A DNA stretch of 64,000 nt. It comes from Roseicella sp. DB1501. Lineage in GTDB: Bacteria > Pseudomonadota > Alphaproteobacteria > Acetobacterales > Acetobacteraceae. Positions within the stretch are counted from its first letter, which is position 1. Every line of letters begins with the position of its first letter. Shown here piece after piece: positions 32,581-56,494 of the stretch. Location: assembly GCF_013112485.1 (NCBI RefSeq), contig NZ_JABFHG010000004.1:1-64000 (forward strand), given 5' to 3'. The notes under the pieces were generated by a model. It was not told the DNA's origin and made no database searches. It was given only the letters and a program-made list of their open reading frames with translations. The position numbers were made by a program, and so were the translations under genes.

Positions 32581-34449
32581 TCAGAGGAAGCCGATCGAGA
32601 TCCAGGGCACCGCGGCGATGACGATGGTGCCGATGAGCAGCGCCAGCATGTAGCCCCAGATCGGCCGCATGCCCTCGTCCGGGTGGATGCGGCTGATGGC
32701 GCAGGCGGCGTAGTAGCCGACGCCGAAGGGCGGCGCGAAGAGGCCGATGCCCATGGCGAGGATCACCACCATGGCGTAGTGCACCTCGTGCACCCCCATG
32801 GTCCGGGCGATGGGGAAGAGCAGCGGCCCGAACAGCACGATGGCCGGGATGCCCTCCAGCACGCTGCCGAGGATGACGAAGGCGAGGATGGAGACGGCGA
32901 GGAAGCTGGCCTGCCCGCCCGGCAGCGCCGCCATGGCGGTGGCCAGGTCGCGCGAGAAGCCCGATTGCGTCAGCGCCCAGGCCATGCCGGTCGCGGCGCC
33001 GATGATCAGCAGGATGGCGCCCGAGAGCGAGGCGGTCTCGACCAGGATTGGCCCCAGCCGGCGCCAGTCGAACTGACGGTAGATCAGCAAGCCGGCGAGC
33101 GCGCCGTAGGCGATGCCGATGGTCGAGACCTCGGTCGCCGTCGCCACGCCCTCGATGACCGCGGCGCGGATCAGGAAGGGCAGGGCAAGCGCCGGCAGGG
33201 CGATGACGAAGCTGCGCAGGATCTCCCCGGCCGGCGGCATGGCGGCGCGGGCCGCGCCCCCGCCGCGGTGCCGCCAGCGCACGACGAGGCCGAGCACCAG
33301 GGCAAGCACCGCCCCCGGCAGCAGCCCGCCGGTGAAGAGCGCGCCGATCGAGACGCCGGTGACCGAGCCGATGGTGATCAGCACGAGGGAGGGCGGGATG
33401 GTCTCGGTCTGCGCGCCGGTCGCCGCCAGCAGCGCCACCAGGTCACCCGGCTTGGCGCCGCGCTCGCGCATCTCGGGGAAGAGCACCGGCGCGACGGCCG
33501 CCATGTCGGCCGCCTTGGCCCCCGAGATGCCGGAGACGAGGTACATCGCCCCGATCAGCACATAGGAGAGGCCGCCACGCACATGGCCGAGCAGGTTCGC
33601 CAGGAAGCGGATCATCGCCCGCGCCATGCCCGTCATCTCGATCAGGCTGCCGAGGAAGATGAAGAGCGGCACGGCGAGCAGGATGAGGTGCGACATGCCC
33701 TCATCCATCCGCCCGACCACCACCATGATCGGCACCCGCGTGGTCAGCGCCAGGTAGCCGAAGGTGGCAAGGCCGAAGCAGAAGGCGATAGGCACCCCGG
33801 CGAGCACCGTCGCCGCCACCAGCCCGACAAAGAAGATCAGCAGGTTGAGGTTGCCGAGCGGCGCGAGCACCGGGCCAGCCAGCCAGAACCCGCCGGCGAC
33901 AGCCAGGACCAGCGCCAGGGCGCCGAGCACCCGGCCGGCGCCGCCGAGGCGCAGCAGGCGCGAGACCGCCATCAGCAGCATCAGGCCGAGGCCGGTCGGC
34001 AGGGCGGCGGCGCGCCAGCTTCCCGGGATCTCGAGCGCCGGGGTGGTGATGAAGCTCTCCTCGACGGCGTAGTCGATCGCCGGATGCAGCAGGAGCAGCA
34101 GGAAGAGGATCGGCGCCGCGACGGCGAGCGCCTCCAGCATCCCGCGCAGGGCCGGCGGGGCGCGCGTCGCCAGCGCCGTCATGCGCATGTGCTCGCCGCG
34201 CCGGAAGGCGACCACCGCGCCGAGCATGGCGAGCCAGAGGAAGAGGATGGAGGCGAGCTCGTCCGACCAGACCAGCGAGTTGTGGAAGACGTAGCGGGCC
34301 ATGACGCCGGCCAGCAGAACCACCGTCTCGACCGCGACCAGCAGGCCGGCCGCGGCCTCCACCGCCAGGCCGAGCCCGGCCTCGGCCTGGCCGAGCCGCC
34401 GCCGCAGGCCGGACGGTGCCGCCGGCGTCATCTCCTCCGCCGCCTGCAT
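32581..34449 (-). CDS. TRAP transporter permease, fused DctQ-DctM
   Basis: The 622-residue protein joins a four-helix DctQ-like small subunit (about 1-190: VMARYVFHNSLVWSDELASILFLWLAMLGAVVAFRRGEHMRM) to a twelve-helix DctM-like large subunit (about 200-622: FFVGLVAATVLAGVPIAF, LFIFLGSLIEMTGMA, SGISGAKAADMAAVAPVLFPEM). It takes up a carboxylate-type solute with Na+ or H+ using the periplasmic protein encoded four bases upstream. Fused QM permeases are known in the TRAP family. The operon ends convergently with the lactonase gene. Confidence 0.93.
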   Translation of the reverse strand: MQAAEEMTPAAPSGLRRRLGQAEAGLGLAVEAAAGLLVAVETVVLLAGVMARYVFHNSLVWSDELASILFLWLAMLGAVVAFRRGEHMRMTALATRAPPALRGMLEALAVAAPILFLLLLLHPAIDYAVEESFITTPALEIPGSWRAAALPTGLGLMLLMAVSRLLRLGGAGRVLGALALVLAVAGGFWLAGPVLAPLGNLNLLIFFVGLVAATVLAGVPIAFCFGLATFGYLALTTRVPIMVVVGRMDEGMSHLILLAVPLFIFLGSLIEMTGMARAMIRFLANLLGHVRGGLSYVLIGAMYLVSGISGAKAADMAAVAPVLFPEMRERGAKPGDLVALLAATGAQTETIPPSLVLITIGSVTGVSIGALFTGGLLPGAVLALVLGLVVRWRHRGGGAARAAMPPAGEILRSFVIALPALALPFLIRAAVIEGVATATEVSTIGIAYGALAGLLIYRQFDWRRLGPILVETASLSGAILLIIGAATGMAWALTQSGFSRDLATAMAALPGGQASFLAVSILAFVILGSVLEGIPAIVLFGPLLFPIARTMGVHEVHYAMVVILAMGIGLFAPPFGVGYYAACAISRIHPDEGMRPIWGYMLALLIGTIVIAAVPWISIGFL

Positions 34450-34453
34450 GGCG

Positions 34454-35464
34454 TCAGGTCAGCGCGCCGGTCGATTGCTCCAGGATCGCCCAGGCCTCGT
34501 CGCCGTAGCGCTGCTTCCACTGCGCATAGAAGCCCGCCTTCTTCAGCGCCTCGCGGAAGGGGCCGGTCTCGGGCTGGTTGAAGGCGAGGCCCTGCTTCTC
34601 CAGCTCGGCCTTCAGGCCGGCATTCAGCTTCGCCACATCCGCCCGCTCCGCCACCGCGGCGGCGTTCCAGTTCTTCGCCACCGCCTCCTGCGCGTCCTTC
34701 GGCAGCGCCACCCAGGACCGGCGGTTCCCGAGCATCCAGAAGCCATCCCACATGTGGTTGGTGAGGGAGCAGTATTTCTGCACCTCGTACAGCTTCGCGG
34801 TGGAGATGATGGCCAGCGGGTTCTCCTGCCCGTCGACGACCCGGGTCTGCAGGGCGGAATAGACCTCGGAGAAATTGATGCTGGTCGGCGCCGCGCCGAA
34901 GGCCTGGAAGAGCGAGGTCCAGAGCGGGCTCACCGGCACCCGGATCTTGAAGCCGCGCAGGTCCTCGGGCGAGGCGATCGGCTTGGTTGAGGTGGTGATC
35001 TGGCGGAAGCCGTTGTCCCAGATCTTGTCCATGACGACGAGGCCGGCCTTGCCGATCTGGGCGCGGATATGGGCGCCGAGCGGGCCGTCCATCGCCCGCC
35101 AGACCGCATCGTAATCGGGGAAGGCGAAGCCGAGGCCGTTGATCGAGGCGGGCGGCACCAGGGTAGCGAGGATCAGGCCGGAGAGGGTGAAGAACTCGAT
35201 GGCGCCCGAGCGTACCTGGCTCAGCATGTCGGTGTCCGAGCCGAGCTGGTTGTTCGGGAAGATCTGGATCTCGACCTTGCCGCCGGTCTCCTCCTTGATC
35301 CGCGCCGCCGCCTCCTTGGCGCGGACATTCATGGGATGGGCGTCGGGCAGGTTGTTCGCGTATTTGTAGGTGAACTCGGCCGCATGGGCCGGGTGCGCGA
35401 GCAGCCCAGGCGCTGCCAGCACAGCCGAGGCACCGAGCAGGCTGCGGCGATCGAGACGGACCAT
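34454..35464 (-). CDS. TRAP transporter substrate-binding protein, DctP family
   Basis: The 336-residue protein has a twin-arginine-like signal (LDRRSLLGASAVLAAPGLLAHPAHAA) and the DctP fold (YKYANNLPDAHPMNVRAKEAAARIKEETGGKVEIQIFPNNQLGSD, LRGFKIRVP with the ligand Arg, INFSEVYSALQTRVVDGQENP). It delivers the solute to the fused permease downstream. The solute is not evident from sequence. A divergent PPC/DUF296 gene starts 207 bp away, so the two may share a control region. Confidence 0.93.
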   Translation of the reverse strand: MVRLDRRSLLGASAVLAAPGLLAHPAHAAEFTYKYANNLPDAHPMNVRAKEAAARIKEETGGKVEIQIFPNNQLGSDTDMLSQVRSGAIEFFTLSGLILATLVPPASINGLGFAFPDYDAVWRAMDGPLGAHIRAQIGKAGLVVMDKIWDNGFRQITTSTKPIASPEDLRGFKIRVPVSPLWTSLFQAFGAAPTSINFSEVYSALQTRVVDGQENPLAIISTAKLYEVQKYCSLTNHMWDGFWMLGNRRSWVALPKDAQEAVAKNWNAAAVAERADVAKLNAGLKAELEKQGLAFNQPETGPFREALKKAGFYAQWKQRYGDEAWAILEQSTGALT

Positions 35465-47110: not shown

Positions 47111-47150
47111 GGAGCATGCCGCGTAAACGCATGGGAGCGCGGCATGCTCC
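47111..47150 (+). repeat. Second strong hairpin downstream
   Basis: GGAGCATGCCGCG (47111-47123) pairs perfectly with CGCGGCATGCTCC (47138-47150) across a 14-base loop. It lies 26 bases after the previous hairpin. Confidence 0.6.
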
Positions 47151-47351
47151 AAGCGGGCAACCCACCCGCTCTCGACATCGCGCGCGATCGCCGCCGAGGT
47201 TGATCGTTTCCCCATCGCCGCGCTGCACCCCGAGGCCATGGCGGACAGGGCTGTCTCGCCGGAAGAGACGACCGGGATCTCGCTCTGTCGCAACCATCGA
47301 GGCGCTGGCCGGACTTCACTCGAAAATCCCACAAGTCTCGCTTTTTGATAC

Positions 47352-47380
47352 TTGCGCAGAGGTTGATAAAGTCAGATACG
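47352..47380 (+). promoter_or_regulatory. Possible promoter of the RTX protein gene
   Basis: TTGCGC (47352-47357) and GATACG (47375-47380) are 17 bases apart, in a locally AT-richer stretch. A start about seven bases later would give a leader of about 25 bases with GGAG before the ATG at 47413. Confidence 0.35.
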
Positions 47381-47412
47381 TTGCTCCACCGAAACGTGAC
47401 GGAGCAGCCACA

Positions 47413-48015
47413 ATGGCCCCCATCTCCACCACCATCACCGGCACCAACAACAACGACCTGCTCAACTACAGCACTCGCGCCGACAACCTGAAGATCAACG
47501 GCCTCGGCGGCAACGACACCGTCTATGGCGGCCTCGGCAACGACACCCTCTACGGCGCCACCGGCAACGACAAGCTCTATGGCGGCGCCGGCAACAACTA
47601 CATGGAAGGCGGCCTCGGCAGCGACACCATCGTCGGCGGCACCGGCAGCGACATCATCGTCGGCGGCGGCGGCAACGACATGCTCTATGCCGGCACCGGC
47701 CACGACGTCTTCCGCTTCGCCCCCAACGACACGACCTGGACCGCCGACAAGGGCAGCGACACCATCATCGGCTTCAAGGGCCTCGGCTCCGGCGGCCAGG
47801 GCGACATCATCGAGTTCCTCAACTACGGCCCCGACGCCCATCTCGAATACGTCGGCAGCTCCGCCAAGGTCGTCGGCCTGCAATACTACGCCGTCTACGC
47901 CACGCCGGGCACCGAGGAGGTCAACCGCGTCGACGTCATCGCCATCAAGCTCGATGCCGCCACCGCAGCCGCCGGCAGAACCCTCGCCGAGGGCGACTAC
48001 GTCTTCCATTCCTGA
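47413..48015 (+). CDS. Small RTX calcium-binding protein, probably type I secreted
   Basis: The 200-residue protein starts directly with ITGTNNNDLLNYSTRADNLK and then has about six glycine-rich nonapeptide repeats (GGNDTVYGG, GNDTLYGAT, GNDKLYGGAG, GSDTIVGGTG, GSDIIVGGGG, GNDMLYAGTG) between about 29 and 95. A non-repetitive beta-rich C-terminal domain follows (DVFRFAPNDTTW...DTIIGFKG...GDIIEF). This is the RTX pattern: parallel beta-roll binding Ca2+ and a C-terminal signal for a type I secretion system. No secretion genes are in the window and no enzymatic domain is present. Confidence 0.85.
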   Translation: MAPISTTITGTNNNDLLNYSTRADNLKINGLGGNDTVYGGLGNDTLYGATGNDKLYGGAGNNYMEGGLGSDTIVGGTGSDIIVGGGGNDMLYAGTGHDVFRFAPNDTTWTADKGSDTIIGFKGLGSGGQGDIIEFLNYGPDAHLEYVGSSAKVVGLQYYAVYATPGTEEVNRVDVIAIKLDAATAAAGRTLAEGDYVFHS

Positions 48016-51034: not shown

Positions 51035-52264
51035 TCACCCCCGCTGCTTGTCGAAATCCGGCAGGTTGCTGGCCGAGGCCGCCAGATACTGCGACCTGGT
51101 CGCCTTCAACGCCGCGGCGGCCGACTCGTTCTCGGTGATCTTGGCCATCACCGCCTCGCGGGCCCGGTCGAAATACTCGCGGTTGGCGGCGACGAATTCC
51201 CGCGACCGGCGCAGGCCGGCGAGATAGCCGTTGATCTCCGGCACCACGTAGCGGGCCACCATGTCCCAGCTGCGGAAGGTGTTCTCGGGGTTCGCCCAGT
51301 CATGCACGAAGCCGACCACCGTGCCGAAGCCGCCGCTGAGGGCCAGCACCTCCTTGATGCGGGCGATGAGGTCGTCCGGCGTGCCGATGGTGGCGACCGC
51401 GCCGGGCCCGTAGGCGGTCTTCTCAACCGCCTCGTCCGGATCCGTGAAGGGCTTGGCGCCCGGCCGCTGCAGCGTGCCGGTGATGTATTCGTTGTGGTGC
51501 CGCATCAGCCCATCGCGCGCCTCGGCCCGCGCCTTCTCGCGCGTCTCGGCGATGTGCCAGCTCAGCAGGACGCGCCAGTTCTTCCGATCGACCGTGGTGC
51601 CGTGCTTGCGCGCAGCCTGTTCGGCGAAGCCCCATTGCGTCGGCAGCGCGTTCAGCCCCTCGGTCGAGAGCGAGCCGATGGAGATGATGCCGATGCCGTG
51701 CTTGCCGGCGAGCGTCATGCCCGAGGGGCTGATCTGCGAGGCGACGGCGAAGGGCATCTCCTCCTGCAGCGGCAGCAGTTGCAGCGCCGCGTCGTTGAGC
51801 TGGAACCAGTCACCGCGGTAGGAGATGCGTTCGCCCTGGAACAGGCGCCGGATGATGCCGATCGCCTCGTCCTGCCGGTCGCGCAGCAGCATGGGGTCGA
51901 TGCCGAGCGTATGCGCGTCGGAGGCCAGCGCGCCGGGGCCGGAGCCGAAGATCACCCGCCCGCCGGTCATGTGGTCGAGCTGCACCATGCGCTGCGCCAC
52001 GTTGAAGGGGTGGTGGTAGGGGAGCGAGACAACGCCGGTCGCCAGCTTGATGCGCTTGGTCCGCTCGCCGGCCGCGGCGAGGAACATCTCCGGCGAGGCG
52101 ATCATCTCCCAGCCGCTCGAATGGTGCTCACCGCACCAGAACTCGTCATAGCCGAGCCGGTCGAGATGCTCGACGAGATCGAGGTCCCGGCGGAATTGCA
52201 GCATCGGGTGCTCGCCGATGGGGTGATGGGGGGCGAGGAAGGCACCGAATCCGAGCCGGGGCAT
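51035..52264 (-). CDS. LLM-class flavin-dependent oxidoreductase
   Basis: The 409-residue protein has the luciferase-like TIM barrel: GFGAFLAPHHPIGEHPMLQFRRDLDLVEHLDRLGYDEFWCGEHHSSGWEM, LATGVVSLPYHHPFNVAQRMVQLDHMTGGRVIFGSGPGALASDA, TIGTPDDLIARIKEV. Relatives such as limonene hydroxylase-type and long-chain alkane monooxygenases use reduced FMN. The start follows AGGAGACG. It is divergent from the Fe-S/flavoprotein/NuoF-like operon, with 483 bp between, so the two may share regulation or even supply reduced flavin to each other. Confidence 0.88.
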   Translation of the reverse strand: MPRLGFGAFLAPHHPIGEHPMLQFRRDLDLVEHLDRLGYDEFWCGEHHSSGWEMIASPEMFLAAAGERTKRIKLATGVVSLPYHHPFNVAQRMVQLDHMTGGRVIFGSGPGALASDAHTLGIDPMLLRDRQDEAIGIIRRLFQGERISYRGDWFQLNDAALQLLPLQEEMPFAVASQISPSGMTLAGKHGIGIISIGSLSTEGLNALPTQWGFAEQAARKHGTTVDRKNWRVLLSWHIAETREKARAEARDGLMRHHNEYITGTLQRPGAKPFTDPDEAVEKTAYGPGAVATIGTPDDLIARIKEVLALSGGFGTVVGFVHDWANPENTFRSWDMVARYVVPEINGYLAGLRRSREFVAANREYFDRAREAVMAKITENESAAAALKATRSQYLAASASNLPDFDKQRG

Positions 52265-52747: not shown

Positions 52748-53431
52748 ATGGAAGGCGAGCCCGGTGACCAGCCCCTGCGGCTGGTCCTCGATGGATACGA
52801 GGTAGTGACCCGGCCGGGCATCTCCCTGCTGCAGGCCTGGATCGCGGCCGGCCTGCCGCTCACCGAGAATGTCGGCTGCCTGGGCCAGGGGGTCTGTGGC
52901 GCCTGCCGGGTGCTGGTGCGCCGGCCGGGCGAGCGCATTGCCGGCACCGCGCTGGCCTGCGAGGTGCCGGTGGAGGAGGGGATGCAGGTCGCCTTCATCG
53001 ACCATTTCCCGGCCCGCCGGCCGCATGCCTACGACCTCGCCGCGCTCGGCGACAGCTGGTCCATCCCGGAGCAGATCGACCGCGTCTTTCCCGAGGCGAA
53101 GCATTGCCGCCATTGCAGCGGCTGCGACCGCGCCTGCCCGAAGGGCATCGAGGTGCAGCGGATGGTCAACCTGGCCGCCGAGGGCCAGGTCTTCGCCGCG
53201 GCCGAGCTCTTCGACCACTGCGTCATGTGCAATCTCTGCGTCGCCGCCTGCCCAGAGCATATCGACCCGGCGCATCTTGGCCAGTTCGCCCGCCGGATGG
53301 GCGCCGCCCTGACCCTGCGTCCCGCCGACCTGATGCGGCGGCTGCACGAGATCGAGCGTGGCGGCCAGGCGATCGACCCCGATGCGCCCGGGGCCGGACC
53401 AGGCAAGCCGCCGGGCGGGCCGCCGGCATGA
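52748..53431 (+). CDS. Ferredoxin-like Fe-S subunit with 2Fe-2S and two 4Fe-4S sites
   Basis: The 227-residue protein has an N-terminal plant-type 2Fe-2S domain (Cys44, Cys50, Cys53, Cys71) and a C-terminal domain with two CxxCxxCxxxCP motifs (Cys120/123/126/130 and Cys158/161/164/168). It resembles SdhB/FrdB, but its second cluster has the 4Fe-4S rather than the 3Fe-4S pattern. It should shuttle electrons between the flavoprotein and the NuoF-like subunit encoded downstream. Its stop overlaps the next ATG by four bases. The tail is Pro/Gly-rich. Confidence 0.88.
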   Translation: MEGEPGDQPLRLVLDGYEVVTRPGISLLQAWIAAGLPLTENVGCLGQGVCGACRVLVRRPGERIAGTALACEVPVEEGMQVAFIDHFPARRPHAYDLAALGDSWSIPEQIDRVFPEAKHCRHCSGCDRACPKGIEVQRMVNLAAEGQVFAAAELFDHCVMCNLCVAACPEHIDPAHLGQFARRMGAALTLRPADLMRRLHEIERGGQAIDPDAPGAGPGKPPGGPPA

Positions 53432-55059
53432 GCGCCGAGCCTGTCGCCGGCATCCCCTTCGCCACCGCCCTGATGGCCTGGGCGGCGGCCGCACCGGCGC
53501 CCGAGCGCAGCTGCGACCTGCCGGTGCCGGAGCTGCTGCAGCGCTTCCACCCCGATCACCGCCCCGGCGGCATGGTCACGCTGCAGGCCGGGCCGAGCGC
53601 CGGCGCCGCCTGCCCGGCGGAGCTGGCCGGGCTGCTGCTCTCGGATTCCCTGCTCGACGATATCGACATCGCCGGCGCGCCGATCCTCGATGCCGATGTC
53701 CTGGTGCTCGGCGGCGGCGGCGCCGGCTGCGTGGCGGCGCTGACCGCGGCGCGGGCGGGGGCGCGGGTGCTGCTCGCCACCAAGCTGCGCATGGGCGACG
53801 GCAACACCGTCATGGCCGAGGGCGGCATCCAGGCCGCGATCGGCGCCGAGGACAGCCTGCAGCGGCATTTCGAGGACACGCTGCGGGCCGGGCATTTCGC
53901 CGCCGACAAGGCGCTGGTCGCGGCGCTGGCGGGCGACGGGCCGGACTGCATCCGCTGGCTGATCCGCGAGGGCATGGGCTTCGACCTCGGCGACGACCGG
54001 CAGCGCATGGGCGGCACGCTGCTGCGCAAGACGCCCGGCGGGGCGACGGCGGCGCGGCTGCTCTCCTACCGCGACTTCACCGGGCTCGAGATGATGCGGG
54101 CGCTGCGCGAGGCGGTGCTGCTCACCCCCGGCATCGCCGTGCTGGACCGGCATCCGGCGCTGGAGCTGCTGACCGACGACCGCGGCCGCTGCGGCGGCGC
54201 GGTGCTGCAGGATCTCGGCCAGGGGCGGCTGGTGCTGGTGCGGTCCGGCGCCACCCTGCTGGCGACGGGCGGGGCGGGGCGGCTGCACCTCGCGGGCTTC
54301 CCCACCTCCAACCATTACGGCGCCACGGCGGATGGGCTGGTGCTGGCCTATCGCGCCGGTGCCCGGCTCCGCGAGATGGACAGCTTCCAATTCCATCCGA
54401 CCGGCATCGCCTGGCCGCCGCATTTGAAGGGGACGCTGGTCAGCGAGGCGGCCCGCTCCGCCGGGGCGCGGCTGGTCAATGGCCGAGGCGAGCGCTTCGT
54501 CGCCGAACTGGCGCCGCGCGACGTGGTTGCCTCGGCCATGCTGCGCGAGCTGGCGGAGGGGCGGGGCGTGGCGCATGACGGCGGGGCGGGCCTGTTCCTG
54601 GATACGCCGAGCCTGGAGCGCGAGCAGCCCGGCATCCTGGGCAAGCGGCTGCTGACCCTCTCGCATCTCGCGCATCGCGCCGGCTTCGACCCGGCGCGCG
54701 AGCCCTTCCTGGTGCGGCCGACGCTGCACTACCAGAATGGCGGCGTGGTCATCGACCCGGCGGGGCGCACCACCCTGCCGGGGCTGCTGGCGGCGGGGGA
54801 GGTGACGGGCGGGCTGCACGGCCGCAACCGCATGATGGGCAATGCCCTGCTGGAGCTGGTCGCCTTCGGCCGCCGCGCCGGCGCCGCCGCGGCCGCCGAT
54901 GCCCGGGCCGAGCGGCCGCGCAACCTCGGTCTCAATCACCTCGCCGGCTGGCGGCGCGACCTGCTCGCCGCCGGGATCGACCTCGGCCGCAAGGGGCCGC
55001 TGCTCTTCCCGCCCTATGGCAACGTGACCGCCGAGGGCCTGCTGGGACATGCCGCGTGA
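53428..55059 (+). CDS. FAD-dependent oxidoreductase, SdhA/FrdA/NadB family
   Basis: The 543-residue protein has an FAD-binding loop LVLGGGGAGCVAALTAARAG (about 93-110). The covalent-flavin family block LRMGDGNTVMAEGGIQAAIGAEDSLQRHFEDTLRAG lacks the usual SHT motif of SdhA. QFHPTGIAWPP carries the active-site His/Thr, and a Glu/Arg region lies in SEAARSAGARLVNGRGERFV. The C-terminal helical domain of SdhA is reduced, while the N-terminal ~85 residues are extra. It probably oxidises or reduces a dicarboxylate-like substrate. No SdhC/D-type membrane gene is present. Confidence 0.87.
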   Translation: MSAEPVAGIPFATALMAWAAAAPAPERSCDLPVPELLQRFHPDHRPGGMVTLQAGPSAGAACPAELAGLLLSDSLLDDIDIAGAPILDADVLVLGGGGAGCVAALTAARAGARVLLATKLRMGDGNTVMAEGGIQAAIGAEDSLQRHFEDTLRAGHFAADKALVAALAGDGPDCIRWLIREGMGFDLGDDRQRMGGTLLRKTPGGATAARLLSYRDFTGLEMMRALREAVLLTPGIAVLDRHPALELLTDDRGRCGGAVLQDLGQGRLVLVRSGATLLATGGAGRLHLAGFPTSNHYGATADGLVLAYRAGARLREMDSFQFHPTGIAWPPHLKGTLVSEAARSAGARLVNGRGERFVAELAPRDVVASAMLRELAEGRGVAHDGGAGLFLDTPSLEREQPGILGKRLLTLSHLAHRAGFDPAREPFLVRPTLHYQNGGVVIDPAGRTTLPGLLAAGEVTGGLHGRNRMMGNALLELVAFGRRAGAAAAADARAERPRNLGLNHLAGWRRDLLAAGIDLGRKGPLLFPPYGNVTAEGLLGHAA

Positions 55060-55211
55060 TACCTGGCGCACGACGTTCCGACCTGCGGCCCACAGGGCCG
55101 AGCGCCCGAACGGGCGCCGCGGGTCGCGCCGTAAGGCGGCGCGCCAAATGGCGCGTCATGCCGAAGACGTGCTGTTCGCACGACGCCGCGAAGCCAAGCC
55201 GCTGGAAGCGG

Positions 55212-55249
55212 TGCCCGGCGTTTGAGGGGCAGGAAGGTGAAACCTTCCT
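55212..55249 (+). promoter_or_regulatory. Repeat core and hairpin ahead of the NuoF-like gene
   Basis: The core CCCGGCGTTTGAGGGGC is followed by AGGAAGGT-gaa-ACCTTCCT (55231-55249), a perfect hairpin ending nine bases before the ATG at 55259. Its left arm contains AGGAAGG, a Shine-Dalgarno-like sequence, so the hairpin may limit translation or act as a terminator. The 199-bp gap upstream also holds other dyads (CGCGCC-aaat-GGCGCG). Confidence 0.45.
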
Positions 55250-55258
55250 ACGCTCGGT

Positions 55259-56494
55259 ATGAGGGTGCTCACCGATCCGGCCTGCCGCACCGGCGCCGAC
55301 CTCGCGGCCTGGCTGGCAGGGGGCGGCGGCGAGGGCCTCGCCCGCGCTCTGGCGGATCCCGCCGGCATCGTCCCGACCCTGGAGCGGGCCGGGCTGCGTG
55401 GCCTCGGCGGCGCCGGCTTCCCGACCCACCGCAAATGGGCGACCGTCGCCGCCCAGCCCGCCCCCGAGCGCTGGGTCCTCTGCAACGGCAATGAGGACGA
55501 GCCCGGCACCTTCAAGGACCGCTTCCTGCTGGCGGAGACGCCGCATCAGGTGATCGAGGGCGCCCTGATCGCCGCCCTCGCGGTGCACGCGTCGCAGCTC
55601 GTGCTCTACGTCAACCCGCGCGAGGCCGCGGCAGTGGCGGCCTGCCGCGCCGCGCTGGCGGCCTGGGAGGCGCATCCGCTGGCCGCCGCGGTCACGGCCG
55701 CGACCGGCCAGGCGCTCGCGCTCCGCGTGGTGGAAAGCTCGGGCCTCTATATCGGCGGCGAGGAGAGCGGCGCCGTCGCCAGCGTCGAGGGCGGCTTCCC
55801 CTTCCCGCGCCTGAAGCCGCCCTTCCCGGCGGAGCAGGGCGTGCATGGCGCCCCGACGCTGGTGAACAATGTCGAGACCCTGGCGCATGTGCCGCACATC
55901 CTGCGGCATGGGGCGGACTGGTATCGCGGCCTCGGCCTGGGCGAGGCGGTGGGCACCAAGCTCTATTCCCTCTCGGGCGACGTGCTGCGGCCGGGGCTGC
56001 ACGAGCTGCCCATGGGCACCAGCCTGCGCGAGCTGGTCTTCGTCCATGGCGGCGGCATGCTGGCGGGGCGGCCCTTCAAGGCGGTCTTCACCGGCGGCCC
56101 CTCGAACACCCTGCTGATGGCGGCCGATCTCGACGTGGCGCTCGACTTCGACAGCCTGCGGGCGCGCGGCTCGCGCCTCGGCACCGGGGCGATGATCGTG
56201 GTCGGGGAGGGGACCAGCATCCTGCGCAAGACGGCGGAATACGTCTCCTTCTTCGCCAACAACTCCTGCGGCCAGTGCCCGCCCTGCAAGATCGGCACGC
56301 ATCAGGTGGCGCGCATCCTGGAGCGGCTGGACACCGGCGCCGGCCGGCCCGGCGACCTGGCGGCGCTGGCCAACCTCTCCCACATGCTGCCCGGCAGCGG
56401 TCGTTGCGGGCTGGTGGACGGCGCGGCGACGGTGCTGGCGAGCTCGCTCGCCACCTTCCGCGCCGAATACGAGGCGGCGCTGCCGCGGGAGTGA
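55259..56494 (+). CDS. NuoF-like NADH-binding flavo-iron-sulfur protein
   Basis: The 411-residue protein matches complex I NuoF: FMN site LRGLGGAGFPTHRKW and CNGNEDEPGTFKDRFL, NADH-site YIGGEESGAVASVEGGFPFPRLKPPFPAEQGVHGAPTLVNNVETL, the SLBB part, and a C-terminal 4Fe-4S motif SCGQCPPCKIGT with a later Cys in SGRCGLVD. There is no nuoE or other complex I subunit around, so it is not part of complex I. With the two upstream genes it would form an NADH-linked module. The ATG follows a hairpin, not a clear ribosome site. The gene is convergent with gshB. Confidence 0.87.
   Translation: MRVLTDPACRTGADLAAWLAGGGGEGLARALADPAGIVPTLERAGLRGLGGAGFPTHRKWATVAAQPAPERWVLCNGNEDEPGTFKDRFLLAETPHQVIEGALIAALAVHASQLVLYVNPREAAAVAACRAALAAWEAHPLAAAVTAATGQALALRVVESSGLYIGGEESGAVASVEGGFPFPRLKPPFPAEQGVHGAPTLVNNVETLAHVPHILRHGADWYRGLGLGEAVGTKLYSLSGDVLRPGLHELPMGTSLRELVFVHGGGMLAGRPFKAVFTGGPSNTLLMAADLDVALDFDSLRARGSRLGTGAMIVVGEGTSILRKTAEYVSFFANNSCGQCPPCKIGTHQVARILERLDTGAGRPGDLAALANLSHMLPGSGRCGLVDGAATVLASSLATFRAEYEAALPRE

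Follow-up and report, generated by a model that had tools for sequence, protein, structure and literature searches.

A linked three-gene set in Roseicella sp. DB1501 and its proposed role as a soluble NADH-dependent fumarate reductase

Layout of the locus

The window analysed here is a stretch of 64,000 nucleotides from Roseicella sp. DB1501 (contig NZ_JABFHG010000004.1), and the system in question is a trio of linked genes within it (Table 1). Gene 1 encodes an iron–sulfur protein, gene 2 a flavoprotein related to SdhA, FrdA and NadB, and gene 3 a NuoF-like protein. Judging from sequence comparisons, we propose with a probability of roughly 0.73 that the trio encodes a soluble three-subunit fumarate reductase driven by reduced nicotinamide adenine dinucleotide (NADH).

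Table 1. Features of the trio locus (positions in the window).
Feature	Position	Strand	Description
Gene 1, iron–sulfur subunit	52748-53431	+	227 amino acids; N-terminal Fer2-type [2Fe-2S] region, then two [4Fe-4S] motifs
Gene 2, catalytic flavoprotein	53428-55059	+	543 amino acids; SdhA/FrdA/NadB core, N-terminal extension
Dispersed repeat, hairpin-rich, not part of the system	55060-55258	.	199 bp, between genes 2 and 3
Gene 3, NuoF-like subunit	55259-56494	+	411 amino acids; FMN/NADH domain, SLBB-like region, [4Fe-4S] N3-type site

The end of gene 1 and the start of gene 2 share the letters ATGA. Genes 2 and 3 are separated by the repeat, which is a local insertion. Both flanking reading frames are intact, and at the same place in the sister locus L034 genes 2 and 3 overlap by ATGA. 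Counting its own copy, the repeat matched 53 places in the genome (of 168 candidates, 40 were scored); its folding z was −2.72. It was considered as an RNA and rejected, as no Rfam match was found at gathering scores and it proved to be a dispersed repeat. A promoter and terminator scan gave nothing beyond chance.

Among the NCBIfam matches listed, no model reached its cut-off for any of the three genes (for gene 2, the best 25 of 51 matches). In the one annotated trio record examined (L067), the genes carry only the name 'FAD-binding protein' and domain names. No membrane anchor gene is annotated beside the trio in L067 and none lies between the trio genes of the window; an anchor was not sought elsewhere. 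Gene calls based on GC content were used as leads only.

Cofactor sites of the subunits

Gene 1 contains two CxxCxxCxxxC motifs, and its [4Fe-4S] dicluster domains scored above Pfam gathering scores, while Fer2_4 and Fer2 stayed just below (21.4 of 22.8 and 16.8 of 21 bits). In an alignment of 15 rows, Ilyobacter among them, 12 cysteines were invariant (C44, C50, C53, C71, C120, C123, C126, C130, C158, C161, C164, and C168), four for a [2Fe-2S] cluster and eight for two [4Fe-4S] clusters. SdhB carries a [4Fe-4S] and a [3Fe-4S] cluster beside its [2Fe-2S] cluster. Because two ferredoxin-type [4Fe-4S] motifs take the place of this pair, the label 'SdhB-like' fits gene 1 in its cofactor layout only. 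NCBIfam gave only weak partial matches, including dhsB (19.6 bits, cut-off 88) and TfrB (19.7 of 385 bits); gene 1 stops after the ferredoxin part.

Gene 2 matched Pfam FAD_binding_2 with 244 bits. Its top NCBIfam score was for TfrA (325.4 of 718 bits); NadB gave 282.4 bits (cut-off 452.75) and the SdhA/FrdA-type family profile TIGR01812 274.5 bits (cut-off 567.3), all below their cut-offs. When compared with E. coli SdhA, FrdA, and NadB, the dicarboxylate-site residues H323, T325, E340, R343, R364, H434, and R468 were kept; H323, E340, R343, R364, H434, and R468 correspond to SdhA H242, E255, R258, R286, H354, and R399. These residues were invariant in 17/17 trio rows and in all 12 rows examined of the related two-gene pair described below. 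By its aligned residues, gene 2 retains the dicarboxylate site of SdhA/FrdA/NadB enzymes.

At the position of the histidine that binds flavin adenine dinucleotide (FAD) covalently (SdhA H45), gene 2 has asparagine (N126) in 29/29 trio and pair rows, and NadB has serine. Since this asparagine stands where SdhA and FrdA have the covalent-FAD histidine, the FAD of gene 2 is predicted to be non-covalent. An N-terminal extension of ~85 residues with a conserved HPD motif was present in Ilyobacter too, and the SdhA-type C-terminal helical domain was missing. The AlphaFold2 model of gene 2 (predicted local distance difference test, pLDDT, 71.6), used for the fold only, had E. coli FrdA as its best fold match, then SdhA, with template modelling (TM) scores of about 0.5-0.54.

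In gene 3, Complex1_51K and NADH_4Fe-4S scored above Pfam gathering scores and SLBB just below. The cluster cysteines C337, C340, C343, and C383 were invariant in 10 rows. The best NCBIfam score, for TIGR01959 (nuoF_fam), was 372.4 of 558.65 bits and so under the cut-off. NuoE was not found near the trio in 5/5 genomes, where its matches lay on other contigs or ~90 kb off; other loci were not searched for it. The assignment of gene 3 to the genome's own complex I or formate dehydrogenase was rejected, as other NuoF homologues are present on contig C43 and at C34:147296, 38% identical. The latter belongs to a second NuoF/NuoE-like pair (C34:147296-149208), which lies ~90 kb from the trio, is separate from complex I and is possibly a formate dehydrogenase module.

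The original prediction, made from the DNA letters of the window, had described a hybrid of SdhB-like, SdhA/NadB-like and NuoF-like subunits working without NuoE. The domains bore out this three-gene set, with the limit on 'SdhB-like' given above, and the five genomes agreed on the missing NuoE. The predicted cofactors, flavin mononucleotide (FMN) and [4Fe-4S] in gene 3, [2Fe-2S] and two [4Fe-4S] in gene 1 and FAD in gene 2, likewise agreed with the domains and cysteines.

Linkage and distribution of the trio

Close relatives of genes 1, 2, and 3 were found in the same 5 of 146 related genomes (own included) and were adjacent in each. Two of the three scans used a threshold of E 1e-100; the other gave weak matches only (E 1.7e-5 or worse) in 22 more genomes, which were not counted. 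A gene 1 scan of genome contigs, a method that reaches close relatives only, gave 24 loci, including the Roseomonas group, Chitinasiproducens, Comamonas, Pseudomonas flavescens, and two contig pieces of one Ectothiorhodospiraceae metagenome-assembled genome. Eight plasmid records matched gene 2; seven were taken into the analysis, and the eighth was a second Cupriavidus metallidurans. The 30 outside loci discussed below are the 24 together with L065, L066, L067, L069, L127, and L128, and the Ilyobacter locus L068 was kept apart. The set of relatives and the set of outside loci overlap, because L034 and genome G003 are probably the same strain.

The complete trio was present in 27/30 outside loci (in L056 gene 1 is partial), and contig ends truncate the other three (L037, L049, and L055). 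The stop of gene 2 and the start of gene 3 share ATGA or GTGA in 20 of the 27 uncut loci; the remaining 7 have 26-287 bp between the gene 2 stop and the gene 3 match. This synteny is kept across Alpha-, Beta-, and Gammaproteobacteria, so the arrangement is not due to chance. The genome survey suggested with the original prediction found the trio together elsewhere. A lack of such co-occurrence had been named as a refutation of that prediction and was not observed; the trio is a real unit.

A sister pair in reductive tricarboxylic acid clusters

A gene 1 profile was run over 398 genomes of the phylum and matched 30, own included. The 29 other matches scored 137-185 bits, compared with 376 for the own gene. 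Pair loci were examined in 20 of those 29 genomes (L103-L122), which belong to another class of the phylum. Homologues of genes 1 and 2 stood in the same order in 20/20 loci, and no NuoF match was found within the stretches examined. SucC and SucD come after the pair, on its strand, in 18/20 loci, joined by KorA in 17 and by KorB in 16. Both exceptions sit on short contigs: that of L107 stops right behind gene 2, and in L119 the remaining 1.3 kb holds no SucC. Upstream of the pair, a PorB-like gene was present in 14/20 loci and a PorA-like gene in 11/20. Many of these loci also have a conserved gene of ~265 amino acids upstream of the pair (e.g., L104 7923-8717).

L103 showed the order AcnB-MDH-FumA-FumB-[pair]-SucC-SucD-KorA-KorB. 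Its flanking genes reached NCBIfam cut-offs; for KorA and KorB these were cut-offs of subfamily-level models only, which name them 2-oxoacid:acceptor oxidoreductases. Read from these assignments, this is the order of the reductive tricarboxylic acid (TCA) cycle, which would place the pair at the fumarate-to-succinate step. According to an excerpt of PMC6783814, which does not name the genes of the pair, Magnetococcus marinus MC-1 has strong experimental evidence for a reductive TCA cycle and a fumarate reductase in its genome. For Leptospirillum, an excerpt of PMC2607301 gives an frdAB-sucCD arrangement with a proposed anchor gene.

The gene 2 tree comprised 17 rows from the 31 trio loci, 11 from the 20 pair loci, the Ilyobacter sequence and an outgroup of four rows. 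Trio and pair together were split from SdhA, FrdA, and NadB with a support of 100/100; the E. coli NadB and FrdA rows were long-branched. The trio group received 94/99, just under the level that the tool marks with a star, and the pair with Ilyobacter received 99/97. The tree is compatible with a single joining of NuoF but does not prove it.

In Ilyobacter polytropus, plasmid pILYOP01 (L068 358-9260) carries the pair after heterodisulfide-reductase-like genes and before an aminotransferase and a TAXI TRAP transporter. The genes beside the pair are annotated as heterodisulfide reductase (Hdr) A and B family, hydrogenase iron-sulfur subunit, and FAD/NAD(P)-binding protein, which can be read as Flx-like. 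This context suggests that the electrons come from another donor, and perhaps that the substrate differs as well. The core of genes 1 and 2 thus has possible electron-input genes of two or more kinds beside it, NuoF in the trio and Hdr/Flx-like genes in Ilyobacter. We lean, by a little over even odds, towards genes 1 and 2 being a portable, anchor-free fumarate reductase core of an unnamed class, fitted to NuoF in aerobic Proteobacteria (where the trio would be a minimal NADH-linked enzyme of complex II type), to Hdr/Flx-like genes in Ilyobacter, and to another donor in reductive-TCA autotrophs.

Neighbourhood of the trio

Anion symporters of the DASS family were found in 17/30 outside trio loci, on either side and in three sequence groups; the family model confirmed six of them, and the others were called by similarity. 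The gene immediately downstream of the trio is DctA in Cupriavidus metallidurans and a class II fumarase (FumC) in Cupriavidus sp. P-10; each scores above an NCBIfam cut-off. DctP/DctM TRAP genes were present in five trio loci, all in one group of relatives. In the own genome (6 Mb) a single DASS protein passes the cut-off; it shares 78% identity with one of the trio-linked groups. A distant TRAP transporter (DctM/DctP-like, 27-30% identity) is encoded ~17 kb upstream of the trio on the minus strand (window 32605-35449).

The LLM flavoenzyme gene at 51035-52264, which had been suggested to belong to the same pathway, was rejected as a part of the system. Within the stretches examined it was present in 1/30 outside trio loci, L034 of the same genus; L005, probably the same strain as L034, has it as well. 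An open reading frame at 47116-48015 contains repeated GGxGxD-type motifs that by eye resemble RTX calcium-binding repeats.

Proposed function and alternatives

In the proposed enzyme, NADH rather than its phosphorylated form NADPH would reduce the FMN of gene 3. Electrons would pass through the [4Fe-4S] cluster of gene 3 and then, in gene 1, through two [4Fe-4S] clusters and a [2Fe-2S] cluster to the non-covalent FAD of gene 2, all within one complex. Gene 2 would then use the Arg/His/Glu set known from complex II enzymes to turn fumarate into succinate. Physiologically, excess NADH may be dumped onto fumarate, which would be imported or made from malate (DASS/DctA, FumC), and succinate would leave the cell. 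Most bacteria with the trio (Roseomonas group, Cupriavidus, Paraburkholderia, and Pseudomonas) are known as aerobes. One of the two functions first put forward for this locus was a soluble reductase that draws on NADH and has an SdhA-type active site; the domains and the kept dicarboxylate-site residues argue for it.

Fumarate is the most likely substrate, because the sister pair stands at the fumarate-to-succinate step and because DASS often, and DctA and FumC once each, accompany the trio. The earlier proposal of a dicarboxylate-like substrate would thereby stand, as the site is kept, and be narrowed to fumarate. The fumarate/succinate potential (about +30 mV) is far above that of NAD/NADH (−320 mV); with fumarate, the trio would therefore work as a reductase.

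Several results weigh against this assignment. The gene 1 structure model is too poor for use (pLDDT 58), and the gene 2 model is weak (low pLDDT) over parts of the active site. The independent DASS links are fewer than 17, because several loci are close relatives, and 13/30 trio loci have no DASS within the stretch examined. In the window itself no C4-acid gene was found beside the trio, and the own-genome DASS is on another contig. Phosphotransferase system (PTS) genes neighbour the trio in L067. Among the pair loci, the PorA/PorB-like neighbours (L104) remained below NCBIfam cut-offs. Classic SdhA was over its cut-off in 6/6 pair genomes checked, so the role assigned to the pair rests on gene order; five of these six have a further SdhA/NadB-like protein under the cut-off and the sixth has two such fragments at contig ends.

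Another point of this kind is that the Thr preceding the active-site Glu is replaced by Ser (S339) in 16/17 trio rows. With all other dicarboxylate residues kept, this exchange would also suit reduction by the same NADH-linked complex of a fumarate-like acid other than fumarate (e.g., mesaconate, itaconate, cis-aconitate, or maleate). The mixed neighbours point the same way: in L054 a homologue of aldehyde dehydrogenase that stays below its cut-offs, and in L066 and L128 a small gene that has no NCBIfam match and is tautomerase-like by eye. However, FumC and DctA lie directly downstream in the two Cupriavidus loci and the sister pair stands at the fumarate step of the reductive-TCA cluster, and we consider a different acid unlikely.

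Less probable still is the other function first put forward, an NAD-reducing dehydrogenase; here gene 2 would oxidise a low-potential substrate (e.g., aspartate or another amino acid), and NADH would be made by the NuoF-like subunit. Succinate cannot reduce NAD+ appreciably. NadB is a homologue without the covalent-FAD histidine, and no protein of the own genome reaches the NadB family cut-off, but gene 2 fell well short of the NadB cut-off (282 against 452.75 bits) and its neighbours point to C4-dicarboxylate uptake and fumarase, those of the sister pair to the reductive TCA cycle. The trio as a NadB substitute was also rejected: present in only 5/146 genomes, it is too patchy to be a general one.

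The flavoprotein pair might also be the whole enzyme. The NuoF-like protein would then not belong to a fixed complex but would supply the pair with electrons as an NADH dehydrogenase in its own right, or act as a carrier shared with other enzymes. This would account for the pair without a NuoF match in 20/20 reductive-TCA-type loci (stretches examined) and beside Hdr-like genes in Ilyobacter, but a NuoF gene that follows in all 27 uncut trio loci and overlaps the gene 2 stop in 20 speaks against it, and we give it very little weight.

Comparison with known systems

The soluble NADH-dependent fumarate reductase of Hydrogenobacter thermophilus TK-6, said to have been described by Miura et al. 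in 2008, reportedly has five subunits encoded by scattered genes. Compared by description, it shares with the proposed enzyme its solubility, the NADH donor, an SdhA-type catalytic subunit, and the tie to the reductive TCA cycle. The trio differs in having three linked genes with a NuoF-type NADH module; these three are the conserved linked genes of the trio loci, which leaves room for further, unlinked subunits.

In the pair of the reductive-TCA clusters, homologues of genes 1 and 2 keep the gene order and the active site of the trio, but the pair lies upstream of sucCD and has no NuoF gene in the stretches examined. Complex II (SdhAB/FrdAB) resembles the trio in the catalytic fold, the substrate residues, and a small subunit with [2Fe-2S] and two further clusters. 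Unlike complex II, the trio lacks the covalent-FAD histidine, an anchor gene beside it, and the C-terminal helical domain, has the N-terminal extension, and carries two [4Fe-4S] clusters instead of [4Fe-4S] and [3Fe-4S]. TfrAB of methanogens is soluble with non-covalent FAD, and TfrA gave the top NCBIfam score of gene 2. However, that score was under the cut-off, gene 1 is without the HdrB-like C-terminal half of TfrB, and the NuoF-like gene replaces the thiol donor site. Gene 3 shares the FMN/NADH domain and the N3-type [4Fe-4S] site with the NuoF-type diaphorases (complex I, HoxF, and formate dehydrogenase beta), but has no NuoE partner nearby and is tied to the putative fumarate reductase core.

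A literature search, with most subscription papers outside it, found no description of a NuoF-linked fumarate reductase or of the trio. The trio would be a compact, operon-like form of soluble NADH-linked fumarate reductase with a NuoF module. It points to such an enzyme in bacteria usually taken as aerobes, and it suggests a function for genes that the annotated record L067 names only 'FAD-binding protein' or by domain. The comparison also names the likely fumarate reductase of the reductive-TCA clusters, and the three soluble subunits could serve NADH-driven succinate production.

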